64,000 nucleotides of DNA. Source: an uncultured Anaerobiospirillum sp. (lineage in GTDB: Bacteria > Pseudomonadota > Gammaproteobacteria > Enterobacterales > Succinivibrionaceae). Shown piece by piece: positions 1,423 to 34,117 of this stretch. The stretch is from contig CALXOW010000004.1 in assembly GCA_944390115.1 (NCBI GenBank), forward strand, positions 1 through 64,000. Reading direction: 5' to 3'. Made by a program: the position numbers and the translations under genes. The notes beneath the pieces are model-generated. The model worked only from the letters and a program-made list of their open reading frames with translations. It had not been told where the DNA came from and searched no databases. The stretch's first letter is position 1. Each line of letters begins with the position of its first letter.

Positions 1423-2217
1423 CTATTCTTCAGCGGCGCTTAAGGCATCTTGGAGCATTTGCGCCACGATGATGGCCAAGGTGCCTAAGGCGCGCTGACT
1501 GTAGAGGCGAACCGGGTCAATCAGGTAGTAGTGGTTGGTGAAGAAGTTGGTACTCGGATCGCCCCCAGTCTGAATCTTGTTATGGAAGAGATTGTAGATG
1601 GTGGCGGGGTCCTTAAGCTCGGGGCTATATGCTAAGACATAGCGGCACTGATGCTCGATGGCATCAAGGCAGGCTTGCTTGTTGATGACGGTCTTGGCCT
1701 TGACCTGAACGCCCATCAATTCACCTAAGCCGGTGCGGCTCACTTTCTCGCGTGCGGCTACGAAGTGCACGTCAGTCAGCTGGGCAAAGCGTAAATGCGC
1801 AAAGGCTGTGTTAAGCGCTGCTTGCGCGCTCGCCGCATCAGGGAAGAGCTCGCGCTTGATGCTCACCAGTACCTTATTCATCTCTTTTTGCTCTTGTGTG
1901 GCCTGGGCGTTGATGAGATCACGCCAGACCAAGCGCTGCTCGGAGGCGTCGACCACCATCAAATTGAGGCTGGCGCTACGCTTGGTGCGGTGATCTAATA
2001 ACTCGAGGGTGCTATGATCGAGCGCGGCTTGCACCGTAATCGGCTTGCCGTCACTATCGAGCACGTTGATCGGCTGGAGCTGTAAGAGATTGAGCTCAAG
2101 CTTGTGCTTAATCAGTTGCACTTCGTCGAGCGTATCAGGCAAGCGCGCAATTACCGGTAGTCCTGAAGTTAAACAGGATAAAATTATATTCTGATGTTCG
2201 CCCTCCCCCCCCGCCAT
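1423..2217 (-). CDS. Unknown protein, C-terminal part of a gene split at a poly-G tract
   Basis: This 264-codon reading frame begins at an ATG that directly abuts the run of eight G, so its first residues (MAGGEGEH) are products of the tract itself. It has no convincing ribosome-binding site. It carries on in another frame from the minus-strand reading frame that starts at 3049. With seven G instead of eight the two join into a single protein of about 541 residues. The sequence is soluble-looking, mixed alpha/beta, without signal peptide or membrane segment, and I recognise no domain. It is most simply read as the distal half of one gene that is out of frame in this copy. An independent short protein made by reinitiation is possible but less likely. 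Confidence 0.55.
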   Translation of the reverse strand: MAGGEGEHQNIILSCLTSGLPVIARLPDTLDEVQLIKHKLELNLLQLQPINVLDSDGKPITVQAALDHSTLELLDHRTKRSASLNLMVVDASEQRLVWRDLINAQATQEQKEMNKVLVSIKRELFPDAASAQAALNTAFAHLRFAQLTDVHFVAAREKVSRTGLGELMGVQVKAKTVINKQACLDAIEHQCRYVLAYSPELKDPATIYNLFHNKIQTGGDPSTNFFTNHYYLIDPVRLYSQRALGTLAIIVAQMLQDALSAAEE

Positions 2218-3049
2218 TTAAGCTAATTTCTAGAGTAATTGCTTTAAGATAAGGTAAAATTCCGGCGAGCGCTTGTGGGGTAATGGTGACCCAGTTCACG
2301 GCGTCGGGTAGATTCTGGGGATCGCGCGGTGCATTGAGTGGATCATCATGGCTGGCAAAGTATTGATCCCAGGCAGCCTGAGCCTGCGCTTTAGCCTGCG
2401 CTAAACTCTCATCGGCGGCATCGAGCTCATCGAGCACTTGGTCGGTGAGCGCCGTCCACTGCGCATCAGAGCGCGGCCTGAGGGCGCAAGCCAGATTAAA
2501 GGCAAAACGCGCCGGATCGTAGAGCGCAATGCGCTCCATTAAGCGCACAGCCTGGCGGTTGAAGCTGTCAGCGGTGAAGTCAGTCGGGCCAAAAATGGCG
2601 TTGAGGTCGAGCTTGCGGCTGTACTCGCCTAATTTGAGCAAGCCGTTGTACTCGCCCACCAGCATGCCCAGCATATTAAGGTAGAGGCAAGCCGCAGCAT
2701 CGCAGGTGACAAAGGGACCAAGCTGGGGCAAGTGCTGTGTGGTGACGCGATCGAGCTTGAGGTAATCAAAGATGTGCTTGAGCAGCGTACCTTGCGCGCT
2801 GGGAAAAGAACCTGCCTTAAAGAGCATCTCGAGGTAAGGCTGAGGCCGCGCCACATAGTGCGACTTGGCTTTGGGCGCAGCGCTCGGTGCCGCACGCGGC
2901 TTGGTCGCTTGCTGCTTGGTCGCTTGCGGCGCAGCTTGCTGCTTGGTCGCTTGCTGCTGGGTCGCCTTGGCGGCCGTCGCTGTTGCTACCGCTGTTGCCG
3001 CCGTCTCTTTTGGGGCTCCTGCTGTGCGCGCTGCCGCTGTCTTAGCCAT
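2135..3049 (-). CDS. Unknown protein, N-terminal part of a gene split at a poly-G tract
   Basis: The frame is open from 3109, but the ATG at 3049 (MAKTAAARTAG) is the likely start. Residues 1-65 or so are low complexity, made of repeated ATK/QQA/APQ blocks encoded by a short repeated DNA unit at about 2890-2960. A globular region follows, with RPQPYLEMLFKAGSF and repeated acidic and alanine-rich helices. I recognise no family. The frame runs through the eight-G tract into an aberrant tail and stops at 2135. Its natural continuation is the frame ending at 1423. An alanine/glutamine-rich leader followed by a switchable body would suit a regulated or surface-related protein, but no export signal is visible, so function is left open. 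Confidence 0.55.
   Translation of the reverse strand: MAKTAAARTAGAPKETAATAVATATAAKATQQQATKQQAAPQATKQQATKPRAAPSAAPKAKSHYVARPQPYLEMLFKAGSFPSAQGTLLKHIFDYLKLDRVTTQHLPQLGPFVTCDAAACLYLNMLGMLVGEYNGLLKLGEYSRKLDLNAIFGPTDFTADSFNRQAVRLMERIALYDPARFAFNLACALRPRSDAQWTALTDQVLDELDAADESLAQAKAQAQAAWDQYFASHDDPLNAPRDPQNLPDAVNWVTITPQALAGILPYLKAITLEISLNGGGGGRTSEYNFILFNFRTTGNCALA
2205..2212 (-). repeat. Poly-G tract (8 G on the coding strand), candidate phase-variation switch
   Basis: Eight consecutive C on the + strand read as eight G in the minus-strand gene. The upstream frame ends 23 codons past the tract, at the TGA at 2135, while the long downstream frame starts at the tract. Tract lengths of 7 or 10 would join the two frames; 8, as seen here, gives a truncated product. 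Confidence 0.7.
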
Positions 3050-3253
3050 GCCGTCCTCACCTCCAACCAATACCAACCACTGACCCTGCGCTCTCACCAC
3101 AAGGATCAACCGATTTTTGTCTTAACGGGTGCAAAAATAAGATTTGCACTATCTCTACGATGCGCATTCTTATGCCGTTTGCGCCCGTTGGGTTGTGTAT
3201 TAAGTTTTTGGTTTGCCTAATAGTAAGATCGACTTATTATTGGGTGTGGATTG

Positions 3254-18930: not shown

Positions 18931-19320
18931 ATGATTATTGATTCCACTTCCGCAGCAGCCGAGGCAAGTCCTGAGGTGGTAGCTGCTACCTTAGGTGAGC
19001 CCAGTGCGATCTTAGAGCAAAGTATTGACAGCTCTGAGCAAATTGACGCGTTTGACGAGATTTTGCAGCGCTTTGAGCAGAACACCTTAACCGAGCGTGA
19101 TAAGGGTACGGCCTTTGAGCTGTTGGTGCGCGATGTGTTAAGCCAGGCTCAACCCTGGTGCGATCAATTCATTAAGGTGCAGACTTACGCTGAGTGGGCC
19201 AAAGAGCACAAAGAGCTCACCGGGGGCGATGCGCGAGACACGGGCGTAGACTTAGTTGCAACTAGCCTAGATACATTAGAAAATATAGAAAATAGAGCTA
19301 CCCCCCCCCCATTTAGATAA
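18931..19320 (+). CDS. Type ISP-like restriction-modification enzyme, N-terminal fragment (phase OFF)
   Basis: The start at 18931 has GAGG eight bases upstream. Residues 40-115 carry the first half of an Mrr-like PD-(D/E)XK nuclease: KGTAFELLVRDVL, a TYAEWAKEH segment and the catalytic-aspartate strand DTGVDLVAT. The frame then enters a run of ten C and ends nine bases later as PPPFR-stop. The missing QxK half of the nuclease (AIQCKFYGRE) is encoded right after the tract in another frame, so this 129-residue product should be inactive. It is best read as the beginning of the 1774-residue enzyme whose remainder ends at 24256. Confidence 0.8.
   Translation: MIIDSTSAAAEASPEVVAATLGEPSAILEQSIDSSEQIDAFDEILQRFEQNTLTERDKGTAFELLVRDVLSQAQPWCDQFIKVQTYAEWAKEHKELTGGDARDTGVDLVATSLDTLENIENRATPPPFR
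19301..19310 (+). repeat. Poly-C tract (10 C) inside the restriction-modification gene, phase-variation switch candidate
   Basis: Ten consecutive C lie between the D and QxK catalytic motifs of the nuclease domain. With 9 or 12 C the upstream and downstream frames join without interruption; with the 10 seen here translation stops at 19320. Confidence 0.8.
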
Positions 19321-19693
19321 ACAAAATGTTTATTATACGGCTATTCAATGCAAATTCTATGGCCGTGAGCAGTATATTCCCAAGGCTCAAGTTGACTCCT
19401 TTCTCTCATTCTTAGGTCGTACCATTCCGGGCACCGAGACGCCAATCTTCAGAGAAGGCTTTTTCGTCTATACCGGCAAGCTCTCGGAACATGCCGAGAA
19501 CCTGCTCCTGTCCAACGACAAGCACGTCACCACTTTAAGCCACTCCGAGCTGGAGGAGGCTAACCTCGACTGGAAAGGCTATCTGAGAACCGGTGAGCTC
19601 AAGCTCACCCACCGTGTTCTGCGCCCGTACCAGCGAACAGCTTTAGAAAACGTCATTGAAGGCTTCAAGCACCACGCACGCGGCAAGCTCATT

Positions 19694-22600
19694 ATGGCTT
19701 GCGGCACCGGCAAGACCTTCACCTCGCTTAAGATTGCCGAACGCCAAACCAACAATCGCGGCTTTGTCCTGTTCTTAGTCCCATCCTTAGCCTTACTCTC
19801 TCAGACGCTTATTGACTGGAAGCGCCAAGCCAGCGCCCCGATGACGGCCTTTGCGGTGTGCTCTGATAGCAAGGTCGGCAAGTCCGGTGATGAAAATGAT
19901 TTTGCCAGCTATCTGCGACCATCTGAGTTAAGCTTCCCTGCCACCACCGACGCTAAGAGCCTCGCGGCCGAAATGCTCAAGGCCAATCTGAAAAAGCTCC
20001 AAGGCTTGGTGCCAGAAAACAGCGGCATGACGGTCATCTTCTCGACCTACCAGTCGCTTGATGTCATTCACCAAGCTCAGACTGACTACAATCTCCCGGC
20101 CTTTGACCTCATTATCTGCGATGAGGCACACCGCACCGCCGGTGCTTACTTGCTGTCCGACCTCAATGCGGCTAAGGCTGCCAAGGTCGAGTTGGCGCGC
20201 ACCGCGACCGCTATGACCGCGCAACTGGATGCAGAAGTCGGCGCACCAGAGCTCCCAACTAATGAGCCATCTGCCAGCAAGGGCGAGAGCAAAGCCGCAA
20301 GCAAAACCGCAAGCAACGCCCGTAAGCCGCGCCGTGCACGCGGTGCCGCCAGCGACGTCGATGAAGAGTCACTCTTTACCCGCATCCATGATGACGGCTA
20401 CATTAAGGGCCTAAAGCGCCTCTACATGACCGCTACCCCTAAGGTTTACGGCACCTTGGCTAAGGAGCAAGAGGCTAACGAGCAAGCCGTCCTGTATTCG
20501 ATGGACGATCCCGATATCTTTGGCCCTGAGTTCCATACGCTCAACTTTGACATGGCAGTAAAGTACGGCTGCTTGGTCGATTACAAGGTTATCATATTGG
20601 TCGCAGATAAGGCCTTAATCCCGAAGGATGACGATCTGCTCGACTTCTCGGAGTACAACGCCGCTAAGGTCATTGGCACCTGGAAGGCCCTCAACAAGTT
20701 TGGTGTCGATCTCCAAGACGATCCATTCCCAATGCGCCGTGCCGTGGGCTTTGCCCAGGTGATCGACGCTAAGAACAAGTACGACAAAGCAGGTTCCAAG
20801 CAGTTCACTAAGCGGTTCCAAGCCACGGTCGACCACTACCGCGATCATTTGCCTGAGATGCGTGGGCGCGACGGCCGTGCCAATGACGAGCTGGCTTTCT
20901 TCAGCGAGCACAGCTTAGTGTGTGATTGTGAGCACATCGATGGTTCGATGAATGCGCTTGAAAAGGGCTCTCGGCTTGATTGGCTTAGAGCTGAGCCTGA
21001 AGAGAACCACTGCAAGATTCTCTTTAACGTGCGCTGCTTAAGCGAAGGCGTGGATGTCCCGGCCTTAGACGCCGTGATCTTCTTGAGCCCACGTAAGTCG
21101 CAGGTTGACGTGGTACAGACCGTAGGCCGCGTTATGCGCATTGCCCCAGGCAAGAAGCGCGGTTACGTCATCATCCCGATTGTCACCAATGACCTCAACA
21201 ACCCAGAGAGCATCTTCGAGAAAAATAAGAGCTTTGATGTGGTCTGGCAGGTGCTCAATGCCTTAAAGTCGATTAACCCTGATACCCCAATTATTGACCC
21301 AATACTCAATAAGATCGATCCGCGCATTGAAGTGGTCTGCTCCTATGACGATAAGGTTAAAGCTAAGCCCCATAACGGTGGCCATGGAGGTGGTGGTACA
21401 TCAGATGATAAGCCAGATAGCGAGCAGCTATTCTTGTTACCGCATGAGCAAGCCATTCGCATTGAGGAGTCGATCAAGTCGACCTTGATCAAGCGCTTGG
21501 GCAGCCGCAAGGAGTGGCAAGACTGGGCCGAGGATGTCGCTGAGATCTGCACCGAGCAGGTCAAGGAAATCAAGCACGTCTTAGCTACTGCCGCCCCAGA
21601 GCTCAAGGAGCAATTTGTCCGCTTCTGCGCCGACCTTAATGCCTCGATGTGTCAGCACTTCGATGAGGACGAGATTATCGAAATGCTGGCACAGCACATC
21701 GTGATCAAGCCGGTGTTAGATGAACTCTTCCGGGGCTTCCCGTTCACCGAGCACAATCCAATTGCCCGCGCGCTCTCGGACATGCTGATAAAGCTCGACG
21801 CGCAAGGTCTGACTAAGACTAACCGTGACCTGGCAGCGTTCTATCAGAGCGTGGAGTTCCGTATGCGCAATGTCACCTCGGTACAAGACCGCCAGAAGGT
21901 CATTGTGGAGCTCTTTGATCGCTTCTTTAAGGTGGCGTTCCCGAAGCAGCAAGAGAAGCTGGGCATCGTGTACACGCCAATTGAGGTGGTGGACTTCATC
22001 AACCACTCGGTCAACGACATCCTAAAGCAGGAGTTTGGCTTAACCTTAGGCAGTAGGGATGTTCATATCCTCGATCCATTCACTGGTACAGGCACCTTCA
22101 TCACGCGCATGATGCAATGCCAAGACTTAATCTCCAAGCAAGAGCTTGAGCACAAGTACCGCCATGAGCTCCATGCATTTGAGATTCTGCCACTGGCCTA
22201 CTACGTGGCTTCGATCAACGTCGAATCGGTATTCCACGACCTGATGGGTAAGGACGCCGCCCACTACGAGCCGAATAAAATCATGGTGCTCACCGACACC
22301 TTTGCCGAATACGAGGAAAGGCAGCGTCCTATCGCAGGCTCCTTTGGTGAAAACGCCAAGCTGCGCAACACCGTCCACCAGCTTCCTATCAAAGTCATCA
22401 TCGGCAATCCACCTTACTCGGTAGGACAGGAAAGCCAAAACGACGACAACCAAAACGAGAGCTACCCTGCTCTTGAGCAGCGCATCGCCGATACCTATGT
22501 GGCGCAAGCTGATGCAGGAGGCTTAAAGAAAGGCCTTTATGATTCTTATGTAAAAGCTTTCCGCTGGGCCTCAGACCGCATCGGTGAGCAAGGTGTAATT

Positions 22601-24256
22601 GCCTTTGTTTCTAATGCTGGCTGGATCGATGCAGCCGCAGCAAGTGGCATGCGCCGCTGCTTGCAGCAGGAATTTAGCTCAGTTTACGTTTACCATCTCA
22701 AAGGCAATCAGCGCACCTCGGGAGAGCAATCACGCAAAGAGGGTGGCAAGATTTTCGGTGCTGGCAGCCGCGCCCCAATTGCTGTGACCATCCTGATCAA
22801 GAACCCAAAGGCTCAAGAGCAAGGGAAAATTTACTTTGCCTCAGTTGACGATTATCTGAGCCGCGAGGAGAAGCTGGGACAGCTCGTCGAGCTTGGTTCT
22901 GTCATCAGCGCTTCACTCTCTGAGATTAAGCCTGATACCCATGGTGATTGGCTTAATCAGCGGCGAGATGACTTTGGACATTTCATTACGGTTGATGGCA
23001 AGAAGACTGATAATTTGGCTCTTTTCAATAACTTTTCTTTGGGAATTGTAACTTCTCGTGACGCTTGGTCTTACAACTCCAACAAGAGTTCTATAGAGCA
23101 TAACTTCAAAAACTGTATAGCCTTTTACAATGAACAGGTCAAGGAAGCACAGCGTCTTGGGGATAAATTTGAGTACTCTCAAGATAAGAGGCGCATCAGC
23201 TGGGATCGTCCGCAAAAGCGCCATGTTTTACAAGGCAAGTACTACGATGATGTAAAGCCAGAGCTTATTGTTGAATCTCTGTACCGACCTTTCTTTAAGC
23301 AGTTCTTGTACAACAATCGAGACTGGATTAACTGCGTTTACCAGATGCCACAGCTTTTCCCTTTCAGCGGCGCAGAAAACTTGGTAATTGGTACGTCCGG
23401 TGTGGGGGCTAAGGAGTTTAGCTGCCTGATGAGCGCACAAATTCCATGCTTAGACTTCTTGGAGAAGAGCCAATGCTTCCCACGCTACCTCTATTGCAAG
23501 GTTGGGTCGGGGGCGAGTTCTGTTGCTGGTGGCTTGCTGGACTCAGTTGAGCAACCTGTACAAGGCGAGGTCATTAATGGCTATGAGCGGGTTGATGCGA
23601 TTCGCCCAGAGGTGGTGCAGCACTTTAAGGCTGCCTATCCTGAGGAGGCGGCAGTGATTGATGTCGATGCGGTTTTCTATTACATCTACGGCATTTTACA
23701 CAGCCCAGATTATCGCTCCACGTACGCCAATAACCTGCAAAAGGAGTTGCCGCGCATTCCTCGTGTTGCCACTTATGCCGACTTTAAGGCTTTTTCTGAT
23801 GCGGGGCGGGTGCTTGCTCAGCTACATGTGGGCTATGAACAGGTCAAACCGTATGACAGCTGCAAGTTTACGTACGCTAATGGCGTAAGATCAGATAACA
23901 TGGACTACTACGTCAAGCAGCTCAAGTACGGCAAGATTAAGGGCAAGACCGGCAACGCTGCGAAGGACAAGTCGGTCATTGTGTATAACGACGACTTAGT
24001 CATAAGCCACATTCCGCTTGAAGCCCAAGAGTACGTGGTCAATAAGAAGTCGGCCCTCGATTGGGTGGTGGAACGCTGCGGCTATTCTGTGGACAAGGCA
24101 TCGCACATCGTCAATGACTATAACGATTACGCCAAGGAAGTAGGCGATGAGCGCTATATCCTGAACCTCATCCTGCGCGTGATTACGGTGTCCTTGGAGA
24201 GCATGAAGATTGTGAAGTCCTTGCCTAAGCTCACCATTCACAAGCTCGACCAGTAG
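19694..24256 (+). CDS. Type ISP-like restriction-modification enzyme, helicase-methyltransferase-TRD part
   Basis: This is the main part of a single-chain restriction enzyme like LlaGI/LlaBIII, which methylates one strand of its site, translocates on DNA and cleaves. The frame is really open from 19310 and supplies the nuclease QxK strand (AIQCKFY). The first Met, at 19694, lies inside Walker A (MACGTGKTFTS), and there is no ATG, GTG or TTG between 19310 and there, so this part cannot be a normal separate gene. Going on: DEAH box (LIICDEAHRTAG) near 20110, helicase motif VI (QTVGRVMRIAPGKKRG) near 21120, gamma-class N6-adenine methyltransferase motif I (LDPFTGTGTF) near 22075 and motif IV (GNPPYS) near 22405, then a target-recognition region that is AT-richer. 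Joined length would be 1774 residues, a little longer than known type ISP enzymes. Confidence 0.85.
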   Translation: MACGTGKTFTSLKIAERQTNNRGFVLFLVPSLALLSQTLIDWKRQASAPMTAFAVCSDSKVGKSGDENDFASYLRPSELSFPATTDAKSLAAEMLKANLKKLQGLVPENSGMTVIFSTYQSLDVIHQAQTDYNLPAFDLIICDEAHRTAGAYLLSDLNAAKAAKVELARTATAMTAQLDAEVGAPELPTNEPSASKGESKAASKTASNARKPRRARGAASDVDEESLFTRIHDDGYIKGLKRLYMTATPKVYGTLAKEQEANEQAVLYSMDDPDIFGPEFHTLNFDMAVKYGCLVDYKVIILVADKALIPKDDDLLDFSEYNAAKVIGTWKALNKFGVDLQDDPFPMRRAVGFAQVIDAKNKYDKAGSKQFTKRFQATVDHYRDHLPEMRGRDGRANDELAFFSEHSLVCDCEHIDGSMNALEKGSRLDWLRAEPEENHCKILFNVRCLSEGVDVPALDAVIFLSPRKSQVDVVQTVGRVMRIAPGKKRGYVIIPIVTNDLNNPESIFEKNKSFDVVWQVLNALKSINPDTPIIDPILNKIDPRIEVVCSYDDKVKAKPHNGGHGGGGTSDDKPDSEQLFLLPHEQAIRIEESIKSTLIKRLGSRKEWQDWAEDVAEICTEQVKEIKHVLATAAPELKEQFVRFCADLNASMCQHFDEDEIIEMLAQHIVIKPVLDELFRGFPFTEHNPIARALSDMLIKLDAQGLTKTNRDLAAFYQSVEFRMRNVTSVQDRQKVIVELFDRFFKVAFPKQQEKLGIVYTPIEVVDFINHSVNDILKQEFGLTLGSRDVHILDPFTGTGTFITRMMQCQDLISKQELEHKYRHELHAFEILPLAYYVASINVESVFHDLMGKDAAHYEPNKIMVLTDTFAEYEERQRPIAGSFGENAKLRNTVHQLPIKVIIGNPPYSVGQESQNDDNQNESYPALEQRIADTYVAQADAGGLKKGLYDSYVKAFRWASDRIGEQGVIAFVSNAGWIDAAAASGMRRCLQQEFSSVYVYHLKGNQRTSGEQSRKEGGKIFGAGSRAPIAVTILIKNPKAQEQGKIYFASVDDYLSREEKLGQLVELGSVISASLSEIKPDTHGDWLNQRRDDFGHFITVDGKKTDNLALFNNFSLGIVTSRDAWSYNSNKSSIEHNFKNCIAFYNEQVKEAQRLGDKFEYSQDKRRISWDRPQKRHVLQGKYYDDVKPELIVESLYRPFFKQFLYNNRDWINCVYQMPQLFPFSGAENLVIGTSGVGAKEFSCLMSAQIPCLDFLEKSQCFPRYLYCKVGSGASSVAGGLLDSVEQPVQGEVINGYERVDAIRPEVVQHFKAAYPEEAAVIDVDAVFYYIYGILHSPDYRSTYANNLQKELPRIPRVATYADFKAFSDAGRVLAQLHVGYEQVKPYDSCKFTYANGVRSDNMDYYVKQLKYGKIKGKTGNAAKDKSVIVYNDDLVISHIPLEAQEYVVNKKSALDWVVERCGYSVDKASHIVNDYNDYAKEVGDERYILNLILRVITVSLESMKIVKSLPKLTIHKLDQ

Positions 24257-32966: not shown

Positions 32967-33007
32967 GCCGGTGGCTGATGGGCCTTGCCTCAGCCGGGGC
33001 ATTCTTC

Positions 33008-33028
33008 TTTTTTTTTCTTTTTTTTTTT
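33008..33028 (+). repeat. Poly-T tracts (9 T and 11 T) upstream of rsuA
   Basis: Nine T (33008-33016), one C, then eleven T (33018-33028) end just before the rsuA ribosome-binding site GAGGTGAT (33035-33042). Such runs change length easily and could vary spacing or leader structure of rsuA. Confidence 0.6.
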
Positions 33029-33043
33029 GTTAGCGAGGTGATC

Positions 33044-34117
33044 GTGGCCAAGAAGGCAGCTCCTAAGGAAATGCAGCGCTTAGATAAGATTGTCGCTCAC
33101 ATCACAGGCTGGTCGCGCCAACAGGCCACTAAGGTCATCCGTGATGGCGGCGTGGTGGTCGGCGAGGAGGTGATCTTAGACGGTGCCGCTAAGGTCAGTA
33201 TCAACGCGCCTTTAGTTATTGCGGGCTTTAACGATGACTTGGGTGATGACGATGATGCGCTGTGGCTAGAAGAGGGCGCCGACAGTGATACGGTCGCCTT
33301 AGGGGTGAGCGCACAAGAGGCGCTCTTAGCTCAAGTGTTCTTGCTCAATAAGCCTGCCAACTACGTCTGCGCGGACCGCGATAAGAGCCACAATGTGGTG
33401 ACCACGCTCTTTCGCTCCGAGCGCAATTGCAGCAATCTGCATTGCGCCGGACGCCTCGATATCGATACCACGGGCCTGCTCGTGGTGACCGATGATGGCG
33501 CGCTGATTCACAACATCACCGCCCCACGCAAAGAGGTCAATAAAGTGTACCTGGCGCGCCTCGATCGCGCTTTGCCTAAGCACGCAGTTCGCCGCTTTGC
33601 TGAAGGCATCAAGCATCCTGAGGAAGATAAGCGCTATCAAGGCGCCAAGCTTACGCCCCTCACGCCGCTCTTTCATGAGTTAGAGGATGGGGCGTCCCCT
33701 CAAGGGCACTGGGCTGCCGTGCAGCTGAGCCAAGGTCGCTTCCACCAGGTCAAGCGAATGTTTGAGATGGTGGGCTGCGAGGTGCAAGAGCTCACCCGTG
33801 TCGCTATAGGCGCGCTCAATGTCACCTCCGCCCAGGTGGGAACGAGCATCGGTGCCTATTACCGCTTAACCCCAGAAGAGGTCGAGCTGCTCTTTACCAA
33901 CAAGGACTACGAGCTCAGCGAGTTAGAGGCGATGTGGCGTTGCTACCAAGAGGCGGTGGCGACAGCCGAGCTGTGCTATCTGCCGCCTAAGCTCTCAGCC
34001 GCGCGTTCAGGTTCCTCTGAGCTTGATGCCGCTTTGGATGATGAGGATGCCGCGCTGGAGGCAGCCCAGGGCGACTTTGATGAGATGGATGCTGAGGGCA
34101 ACTTCCGTATCTACTAA
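33044..34117 (+). CDS. rsuA: 16S rRNA pseudouridine synthase, RsuA type
   Basis: RsuA-type enzymes make pseudouridine 516 in 16S rRNA. An S4 RNA-binding domain occupies residues 10-60 (RLDKIVAHITGWSRQQA). The catalytic core has AGRLDIDTTGLLVVTDDG with the nucleophilic aspartate, and GRFHQVKRMFEMVG. The wording LHCAGRLDIDTTGL is closer to RsuA than to RluB or RluF. At 357 residues it is much longer than E. coli RsuA (231): about 25 acidic residues are inserted after the S4 domain and about 80 added at the C-terminus. I chose the GTG at 33044, which has GAGGTGATC upstream. The earlier frame would encode a poly-Phe stretch from the T tracts, which is not credible. Confidence 0.88.
   Translation: MAKKAAPKEMQRLDKIVAHITGWSRQQATKVIRDGGVVVGEEVILDGAAKVSINAPLVIAGFNDDLGDDDDALWLEEGADSDTVALGVSAQEALLAQVFLLNKPANYVCADRDKSHNVVTTLFRSERNCSNLHCAGRLDIDTTGLLVVTDDGALIHNITAPRKEVNKVYLARLDRALPKHAVRRFAEGIKHPEEDKRYQGAKLTPLTPLFHELEDGASPQGHWAAVQLSQGRFHQVKRMFEMVGCEVQELTRVAIGALNVTSAQVGTSIGAYYRLTPEEVELLFTNKDYELSELEAMWRCYQEAVATAELCYLPPKLSAARSGSSELDAALDDEDAALEAAQGDFDEMDAEGNFRIY

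Follow-up and report, generated by a model that had tools for sequence, protein, structure and literature searches.

Does a restriction-modification (R-M) gene whose reading frame breaks at a run of ten cytosines represent a decaying gene, a fault of assembly or an intact gene that has been reversibly silenced? The question is raised by a locus in a 64,000-nucleotide stretch of DNA from an uncultured Anaerobiospirillum species (GenBank assembly GCA_944390115.1, contig CALXOW010000004.1), referred to here as the window, its genome being G000. On the plus strand at 18931-24256, the parts of a large R-M enzyme are divided between two open reading frames (ORFs) that meet at the run. Comparison with related copies indicates that the run is very probably a slipped-strand switch by which the whole of a Type ISP enzyme is turned ON and OFF, and that the gene is OFF in this assembly.

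Organization of the Interrupted Gene

The first frame, ORF1 (18931-19320), opens with the ATG at 18931 and ends after 129 codons with the TAA at 19318-19320, directly past a tract of ten cytosines (C10; 19301-19310, plus strand). ORF2 (19307-24256), one base off the frame of ORF1, is open from the run for 1649 codons to 24256; the remaining two frames across this stretch contain 62 and 135 stops. An earlier note on this DNA had described just such a break at ten cytosines, and the run and both frames were located as it claimed. A homopolymer therefore lies inside the coding region at the point where the frames change, as in slipped-strand phase-variable genes.

ORF1 holds the N-terminal part of an Mrr-type nuclease, extending beyond the strand bearing a conserved aspartate (codon 19249-19251, within GVDLVA) that has an equivalent in all 15 aligned relatives and which, from work on Mrr and LlaGI, we take to be catalytic. 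Pfam and NCBIfam scans of this short piece gave no match, and the PADLOC model REase_MTase_IIG matches its start (1.1e-11). The remainder of the enzyme follows in ORF2, beginning with the C-terminal part of Mrr_cat_2 (19325-19582; PF13156, 3.4e-14), which includes a QCK motif at 19346-19354. Next comes an SF2 helicase-like translocase (19619-21142) made up of ResIII with its GTGKT and DEAH motifs (19619-20209; PF04851, 6.9e-25) and Helicase_C (20918-21142; PF00271, 4.5e-10), followed by the ISP coupler domain (21515-21883; PF22240, 3.4e-34), an N6-adenine methyltransferase with DPFTGTG and NPPY motifs (21941-22453; PF02384 (N6_Mtase), 2e-05, and alignment to LlaGI and LlaBIII) and the Type ISP C-terminal specificity domain Type_ISP_C (23021-24169; PF18135, 4.2e-91), all on the plus strand. 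The D...QxK, Walker A, DEAH, DPFTGTG and NPPY motifs are all present in the two translations, the names of the catalytic motifs being our assignment to these motif strings. The earlier proposal of an Mrr nuclease, DEAH translocase, N6-adenine methyltransferase and target recognition domain (TRD) is borne out by the Pfam matches.

Among solved structures, ORF2 matches LlaGI (5ffj, 8.6e-288) and LlaBIII (4xqk, 1.1e-276), Type ISP enzymes of Lactococcus that have the same domain order in one chain. The order nuclease, translocase, coupler, methyltransferase and TRD is complete in the window, split over ORF1 and ORF2, and occupies one frame in the related copies L084 and L092. On these alignments, the enzyme encoded by ORF1 and ORF2 is a Type ISP R-M enzyme related to LlaGI and LlaBIII.

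Position of the Run in the Nuclease

C10 falls between the aspartate codon and the QCK codons, in an A+T-rich loop (19261-19350) with a GC content of 25% without the run, against 52% for the gene. In an alignment of 15 natural relatives, from which the out-of-frame window gene was left out and in which D111 of L051 served as the reference aspartate, the aspartate, QCK and GTGKT are invariant, and the aspartate strand (GIDLVAT) and the QCK strand are separated by a stretch of highly variable length. This stretch comprises only a few residues in some runless relatives and in LlaBIII, where, unlike in the window enzyme, a short stretch alone lies between the aspartate and QAK motifs. An AlphaFold2 model of the in-frame copy L051 (15 sequences; mean predicted local distance difference test score, pLDDT, 72) places strands at residues 112-116 and 138-144, and residues 120-133 between them have pLDDT <50. 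The best fold match of the L051 N-terminal model in the PDB is LlaBIII itself (4xqk; E 5.5e-19), with a query TM-score of 0.35 and a root-mean-square deviation of 22, the low score probably arising because the domains are placed differently.

Run Length and Selection in the Sister Genome

An orthologue enclosed, as in the window, by mnmA-NUDIX and icd is found on contig C63 of the sister genome G006. Its run is C8, out of frame in the opposite sense to the C10 of the window, and this difference is the sole insertion or deletion across 19089-19688, where the two sequences are 98-99% identical. Run length therefore differs between close relatives, in this case between species. Downstream of the run, the ratio of nonsynonymous to synonymous substitution rates (dN/dS) for ORF2 is 0.113 between these two copies, both of them out of frame, and it ranges from 0.056 to 0.185 over 66 pairs of 12 copies (one pair being without a value), so that purifying selection is evident beyond the run, as in slipped-strand phase-variable genes.

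These observations bear on the view that the gene is a decaying pseudogene and the run a fixed frameshift, a view to which some runless copies broken elsewhere (L102, L109, L115 and L124) lend a measure of plausibility. No further stop interrupts the 1649 codons of ORF2, however, and the orthologue has a different run length with a downstream frame equally open; a dN/dS of 0.11 measured against a sister that is likewise out of frame is not that of decay. On the differing run lengths and dN/dS a pseudogene was rejected, and we regard it as scarcely credible. Exchange with in-frame copies could be contributing to the low dN/dS. Bins of the specificity domain over 23044-23425 show only 49-60% DNA identity to the orthologue, compared with 82-99% across most of the remaining bins of the gene; here the window protein shares 79% identity with a paralogue on contig C48 of its own genome, which suggests exchange of TRDs between loci.

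The site itself was compared where mnmA and icd share a contig, the two being on separate contigs in G001, G005, G007 and G009. In G004, G002, G010 and G008 the gap between NUDIX and icd is just 316-872 bp, too small to hold an R-M gene, and the site in these genomes is accordingly without one. G005 carries a different ISP gene (run G11) on its mnmA contig, some 2.5 kb off. At the same site in G003 lie three tandem flagellin-like genes, named from their translations by eye (L172, 3534-6830).

Related Copies in the Genus

Matches to ORF2 occur in all 11 genomes of the genus, often several in each, and at E values up to 1e-50 in 21 of 57 genomes of the family, these 11 included. A scan for C and G runs covered the 42 ISP copies in which the N-terminal junction is present, each from its gene start as far as the first stop codon of the ORF2 frame; the set holds one pair (L065 and L125) identical over the compared part, and some copies are cut by contig ends. 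Runs of eight or more C or G residues are present in ten of the 42, beginning in every case 33-50 nt upstream of the AIQCKF codons, and nowhere else in the scanned parts does a run this long occur. Three of these runs, all of length 9, keep the frame (C9 in L084, G9 in L092 and G9 in the second copy of L088, which is cut at a contig end). The other seven, of lengths 8, 10 and 11, break it (C10 in the window and in L091, C8 in L083, G10 in L085 and L108, G8 in L086 and G11 in L090), and in all seven the downstream frame is open for 1579-1659 codons. A further copy in G000 is interrupted by an insertion element next to a run of G11; the 5' part of the gene, 65% identical to ORF1, is on contig C81 and the remainder on contig C78.

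All ten run-bearing copies belong, on a 35-row tree, to one group of 16 rows (support 89/97) that also includes three runless copies and inside which C runs and G runs interleave. Some branches are long, those of two of the three runless rows included, and four forks were drawn open, which limits what the tree says about the number of gains. The earlier picture of a lone case has to be corrected: the window switch is best read, from these comparisons, as a member of a family of switches in paralogues. A further switch at another place in the gene was looked for at the end of the downstream frame in five short runless copies (L102, L109, L112, L115 and L124) and was rejected, the sole repeat being an ATG x4 that lies 236 nt before one of these ends. 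L112 ends at the natural C-terminus and is shortened rather than broken.

The family also bears on two further explanations. Sequencing or assembly could have miscounted the run, in which case the gene would simply be on, and homopolymers are indeed prone to error and the assembly is in draft form, with 123 contigs. Against this, out-of-frame runs of 8, 10 and 11 are present in assemblies from four species, alongside runs of 9 that keep the frame, and the family pattern would stand even if this copy were miscalled; such an error is improbable. Long homopolymers can also slip during transcription or translation, so that a programmed frameshift, or slippage of the transcript, at the run might supply some full-length enzyme from the out-of-frame gene. 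A programmed site would be expected to hold one length, whereas the homologous runs of 8, 9, 10 and 11 would need shifts of differing sign or none, and on these differing lengths a programmed frameshift was rejected as highly improbable.

Phase variation of the Type ISP gene, as first proposed for the window, is supported by the C8 orthologue, by paralogues, both in and out of frame, that have runs at the corresponding position and by purifying selection on ORF2. Chance as the source of the run was ruled out from its position across copies together with codon shuffles of the gene (n=2000), of which 7 produced any C or G run of at least 8 and none a run of at least 10. Loss of mismatch repair as a driver was likewise ruled out, mutS and mutL being present in all 11 genomes of the genus.

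Several points weigh on the other side. With mutS and mutL present, slippage may occur less often than in cells that lack mismatch repair. The number of C8 matches in the window is weakly unusual (4 overlapping matches with 1.30 expected, a count of 4 being reached in 6 of 100 shuffles), and the position of the run across copies is stronger evidence than this plain count; the copies are related, so that their shared run position does not represent 10 independent events. Run lengths were compared from assemblies, with one genome per species. The 32 copies without a run of at least 8 include 24 whose frame is open for at least 1559 codons, the other 8 being shorter or cut, so the switch is no general feature of the family, and two further copies in G006, both in frame, have a G6 and an interrupted GGGGAGG in place of a longer run, indicating that not every copy is a live switch.

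Predicted Consequences of Switching

Slipped-strand mispairing during replication would alter the length of the C run in the variable nuclease loop, and run length is accordingly expected to change within a population. A run that keeps the frame would give a single protein of nearly 1.8 thousand residues, which is likely to be active by analogy with LlaGI and LlaBIII. In Type ISP enzymes, methylation is confined to one strand, and cleavage follows translocation between head-to-head sites that are unmodified (PMC4666363). The ON form would similarly methylate one strand of an asymmetric site, translocate from unmodified sites and cut foreign DNA. With the run out of frame, as in this assembly, translation would end after 129 codons; since the stop precedes the QCK half of the active site, the motor, the methylase and the TRD, restriction would be off and methylation off or very low. 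OFF cells would lose protection and admit DNA while ON cells restrict, and a clonal population, with several paralogues switching independently, would spread both phage defence and the admission of foreign DNA among its members. Such phase-spread defence is the probable benefit of switching.

In a single chain, restriction and methylation were expected to go on and off together, avoiding the danger of a nuclease without its methylase. This would hold for the step from ON to OFF. The step from OFF to ON would bring nuclease and methylase together onto an unmethylated chromosome, and methylase-first kinetics or restriction alleviation would be needed; natural copies of the gene in and out of frame bear on the question of how a cell survives the return of a motor nuclease and its methylase under these conditions.

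Nor need methylation be wholly off. The chief rival to switching of the whole enzyme is that OFF silences the nuclease and motor alone, a methylase-TRD fragment made from an internal start continuing to methylate. HP0669, the methyltransferase-specificity piece of a frameshifted Type ISP gene of Helicobacter pylori, showed methylase activity when produced on its own in E. coli (PMC3936762), and G000 has a free-standing gene for a Type ISP coupler, methylase and TRD, without nuclease or motor domain, beside an ATP-grasp gene on contig C1 (L103, 5679-8321). In the window, however, the earliest ATG, GTG or TTG of the ORF2 frame is the ATG at 19694, within the Walker A motif and some 370 nt from the ORF1 stop, and a simple scan found no AGGAGG-like word of 4-6 bases upstream of in-frame starts before residue 760. 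Residual methylation of this kind we consider unlikely.

Relation to Known Systems

Like the window gene, Cj0031c of Campylobacter jejuni encodes a single-chain R-M enzyme with a homopolymer (G) run. It is a Type IIG enzyme, without an ATP-driven translocase, and the window enzyme is of Type ISP. Its ON and OFF states alter methylation and phage plating, the plating of 12 phages being reduced when ON, and one strain has an interrupted run, 4G-A-4G (PMC4889913), comparable to the GGGGAGG of the G006 copy. In H. pylori, the Type ISP gene HP0667-HP0668-HP0669 (JHP0612-JHP0613) is broken by frameshifts, as is that of the window, but sequence repeats are stated not to be the cause of those in HP0667-0669, and the one in JHP0612-0613 is called an authentic frameshift (PMC3936762). 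A homopolymer run does toggle the H. pylori enzyme JHP1272/HP1353-HP1354, which differs from the window enzyme in being of Type IIG and in having a second run that changes specificity (PMC3936762).

In the accessible literature on phase variation and Type ISP enzymes, LlaGI or Anaerobiospirillum, outside which most subscription journals lie, no phase-variable Type ISP enzyme was found, and the portions consulted of PMC3936762, PMC3874165, PMC12707154, PMC4889913, PMC7049714, PMC4666363, PMC10073500, PMC13335696, PMC6346686, PMC12114051 and PMC6321876 describe none. The last of these, the PhasomeIt study, lists nine phase-variable R-M groups in Campylobacter, and its main text does not use the words Type ISP. 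Phase variation is likewise not described for LlaGI or LlaBIII in the literature found, in contrast to what is proposed for the window enzyme. The principle is already known from the Type IIG enzyme Cj0031c, and for Type ISP no report was found in the literature searched. If correct, the present reading would extend phase variation to single-chain motor restriction enzymes, in a gut genus, with the switch seated in the active-site loop of the nuclease; the in-frame and out-of-frame sister copies would provide a clean, natural experimental pair.

Other Runs and an Insertion-Sequence-like Element

Fourteen C or G runs of at least 9 occur in G000, half of them in R-M or DNA-methylase genes: ISP genes on contigs C4, C48, C78 and C81, an MmeI-type IIG gene on contig C2 and two Type III Mod-like genes on contig C3. 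The others lie in genes for an AT3-SGNH acyltransferase (contig C17) and a hexapeptide transferase (contig C40), in frames without a Pfam match (contig C33 and, twice, contig C119), upstream of a DUF6939 frame (contig C51) and in GC-rich DNA (contig C24). The 30-base flanks are below the GC content of the locus in 13 of the 14, the mean over all 14 being 0.37 compared with 0.53 for 60-base stretches of the window. On contig C2 (L180, 3293-6162), a G10 separates the methylase-domain frame of the IIG enzyme from its TRD frame (720 and 345 codons). The Type III Mod-like methylases form a four-gene array on contig C3 (L181, 3081-10845) with one run in frame (G11) and one splitting the frames (G9), and no Res gene was present among the proteins scanned there.

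G000 also contains an insertion-sequence-like element with 29-bp inverted ends that are 90% alike. Ends of one type were found on contigs C51, C70, C81, C83, C85 and C109 and of the other on contigs C27, C38 and C78 (loci L155-L165), with apparent 3-bp target duplications of ACT (contigs C81/C78) and CTG (contigs C85/C27). At four of the six ends of the first type a poly-C run (C6, C7, C11 and C12) starts exactly 5 nt outside the element, for which the rough binomial chance is about 5e-14 with run density taken from the window alone; no run adjoins the other two or any of the three ends of the second type. Near two solo end-like sites there are C runs at distances of 3 and 5 nt, and one insertion adjoins the G11 of the ISP paralogue on contigs C81 and C78. 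No G000 contig holds the element body with both ends. The 77-base end is present in one of the 57 family genomes (G000 alone) and had no match in viral contigs, and nothing relevant on insertion elements and homopolymers was found in the literature searched. The element appears to home on homopolymer switches.

Within a clade of Anaerobiospirillum, the Type ISP nuclease loop may serve as a shared switch port giving a combinatorial ON/OFF restriction repertoire in which the insertion element freezes switches, a broader proposal to which we assign somewhat less than an even chance. Runs of C and of G are intermixed in the tree, and the loops holding them are not alike in the surroundings of the run, suggesting repeated gain, loss or exchange of the switch. 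Given several paralogues per genome whose TRDs are divergent and exchanged, any one cell would then hold one of many ON/OFF combinations of methylation specificity, and the resident element, landing a fixed 5 nt from runs, would freeze individual switches.

Two other repeats were noted in the window. A minus-strand G8 at 2205-2212 falls in the overlap of two frames, of 324 and 264 codons; a Pfam scan gave no match for either frame, and the minus-strand gene they form (1423-3109) is possibly another phase-variable gene. At 33008-33028, T9 and T11 tracts separated by one base lie just inside the start of an ORF at 32978-34117.

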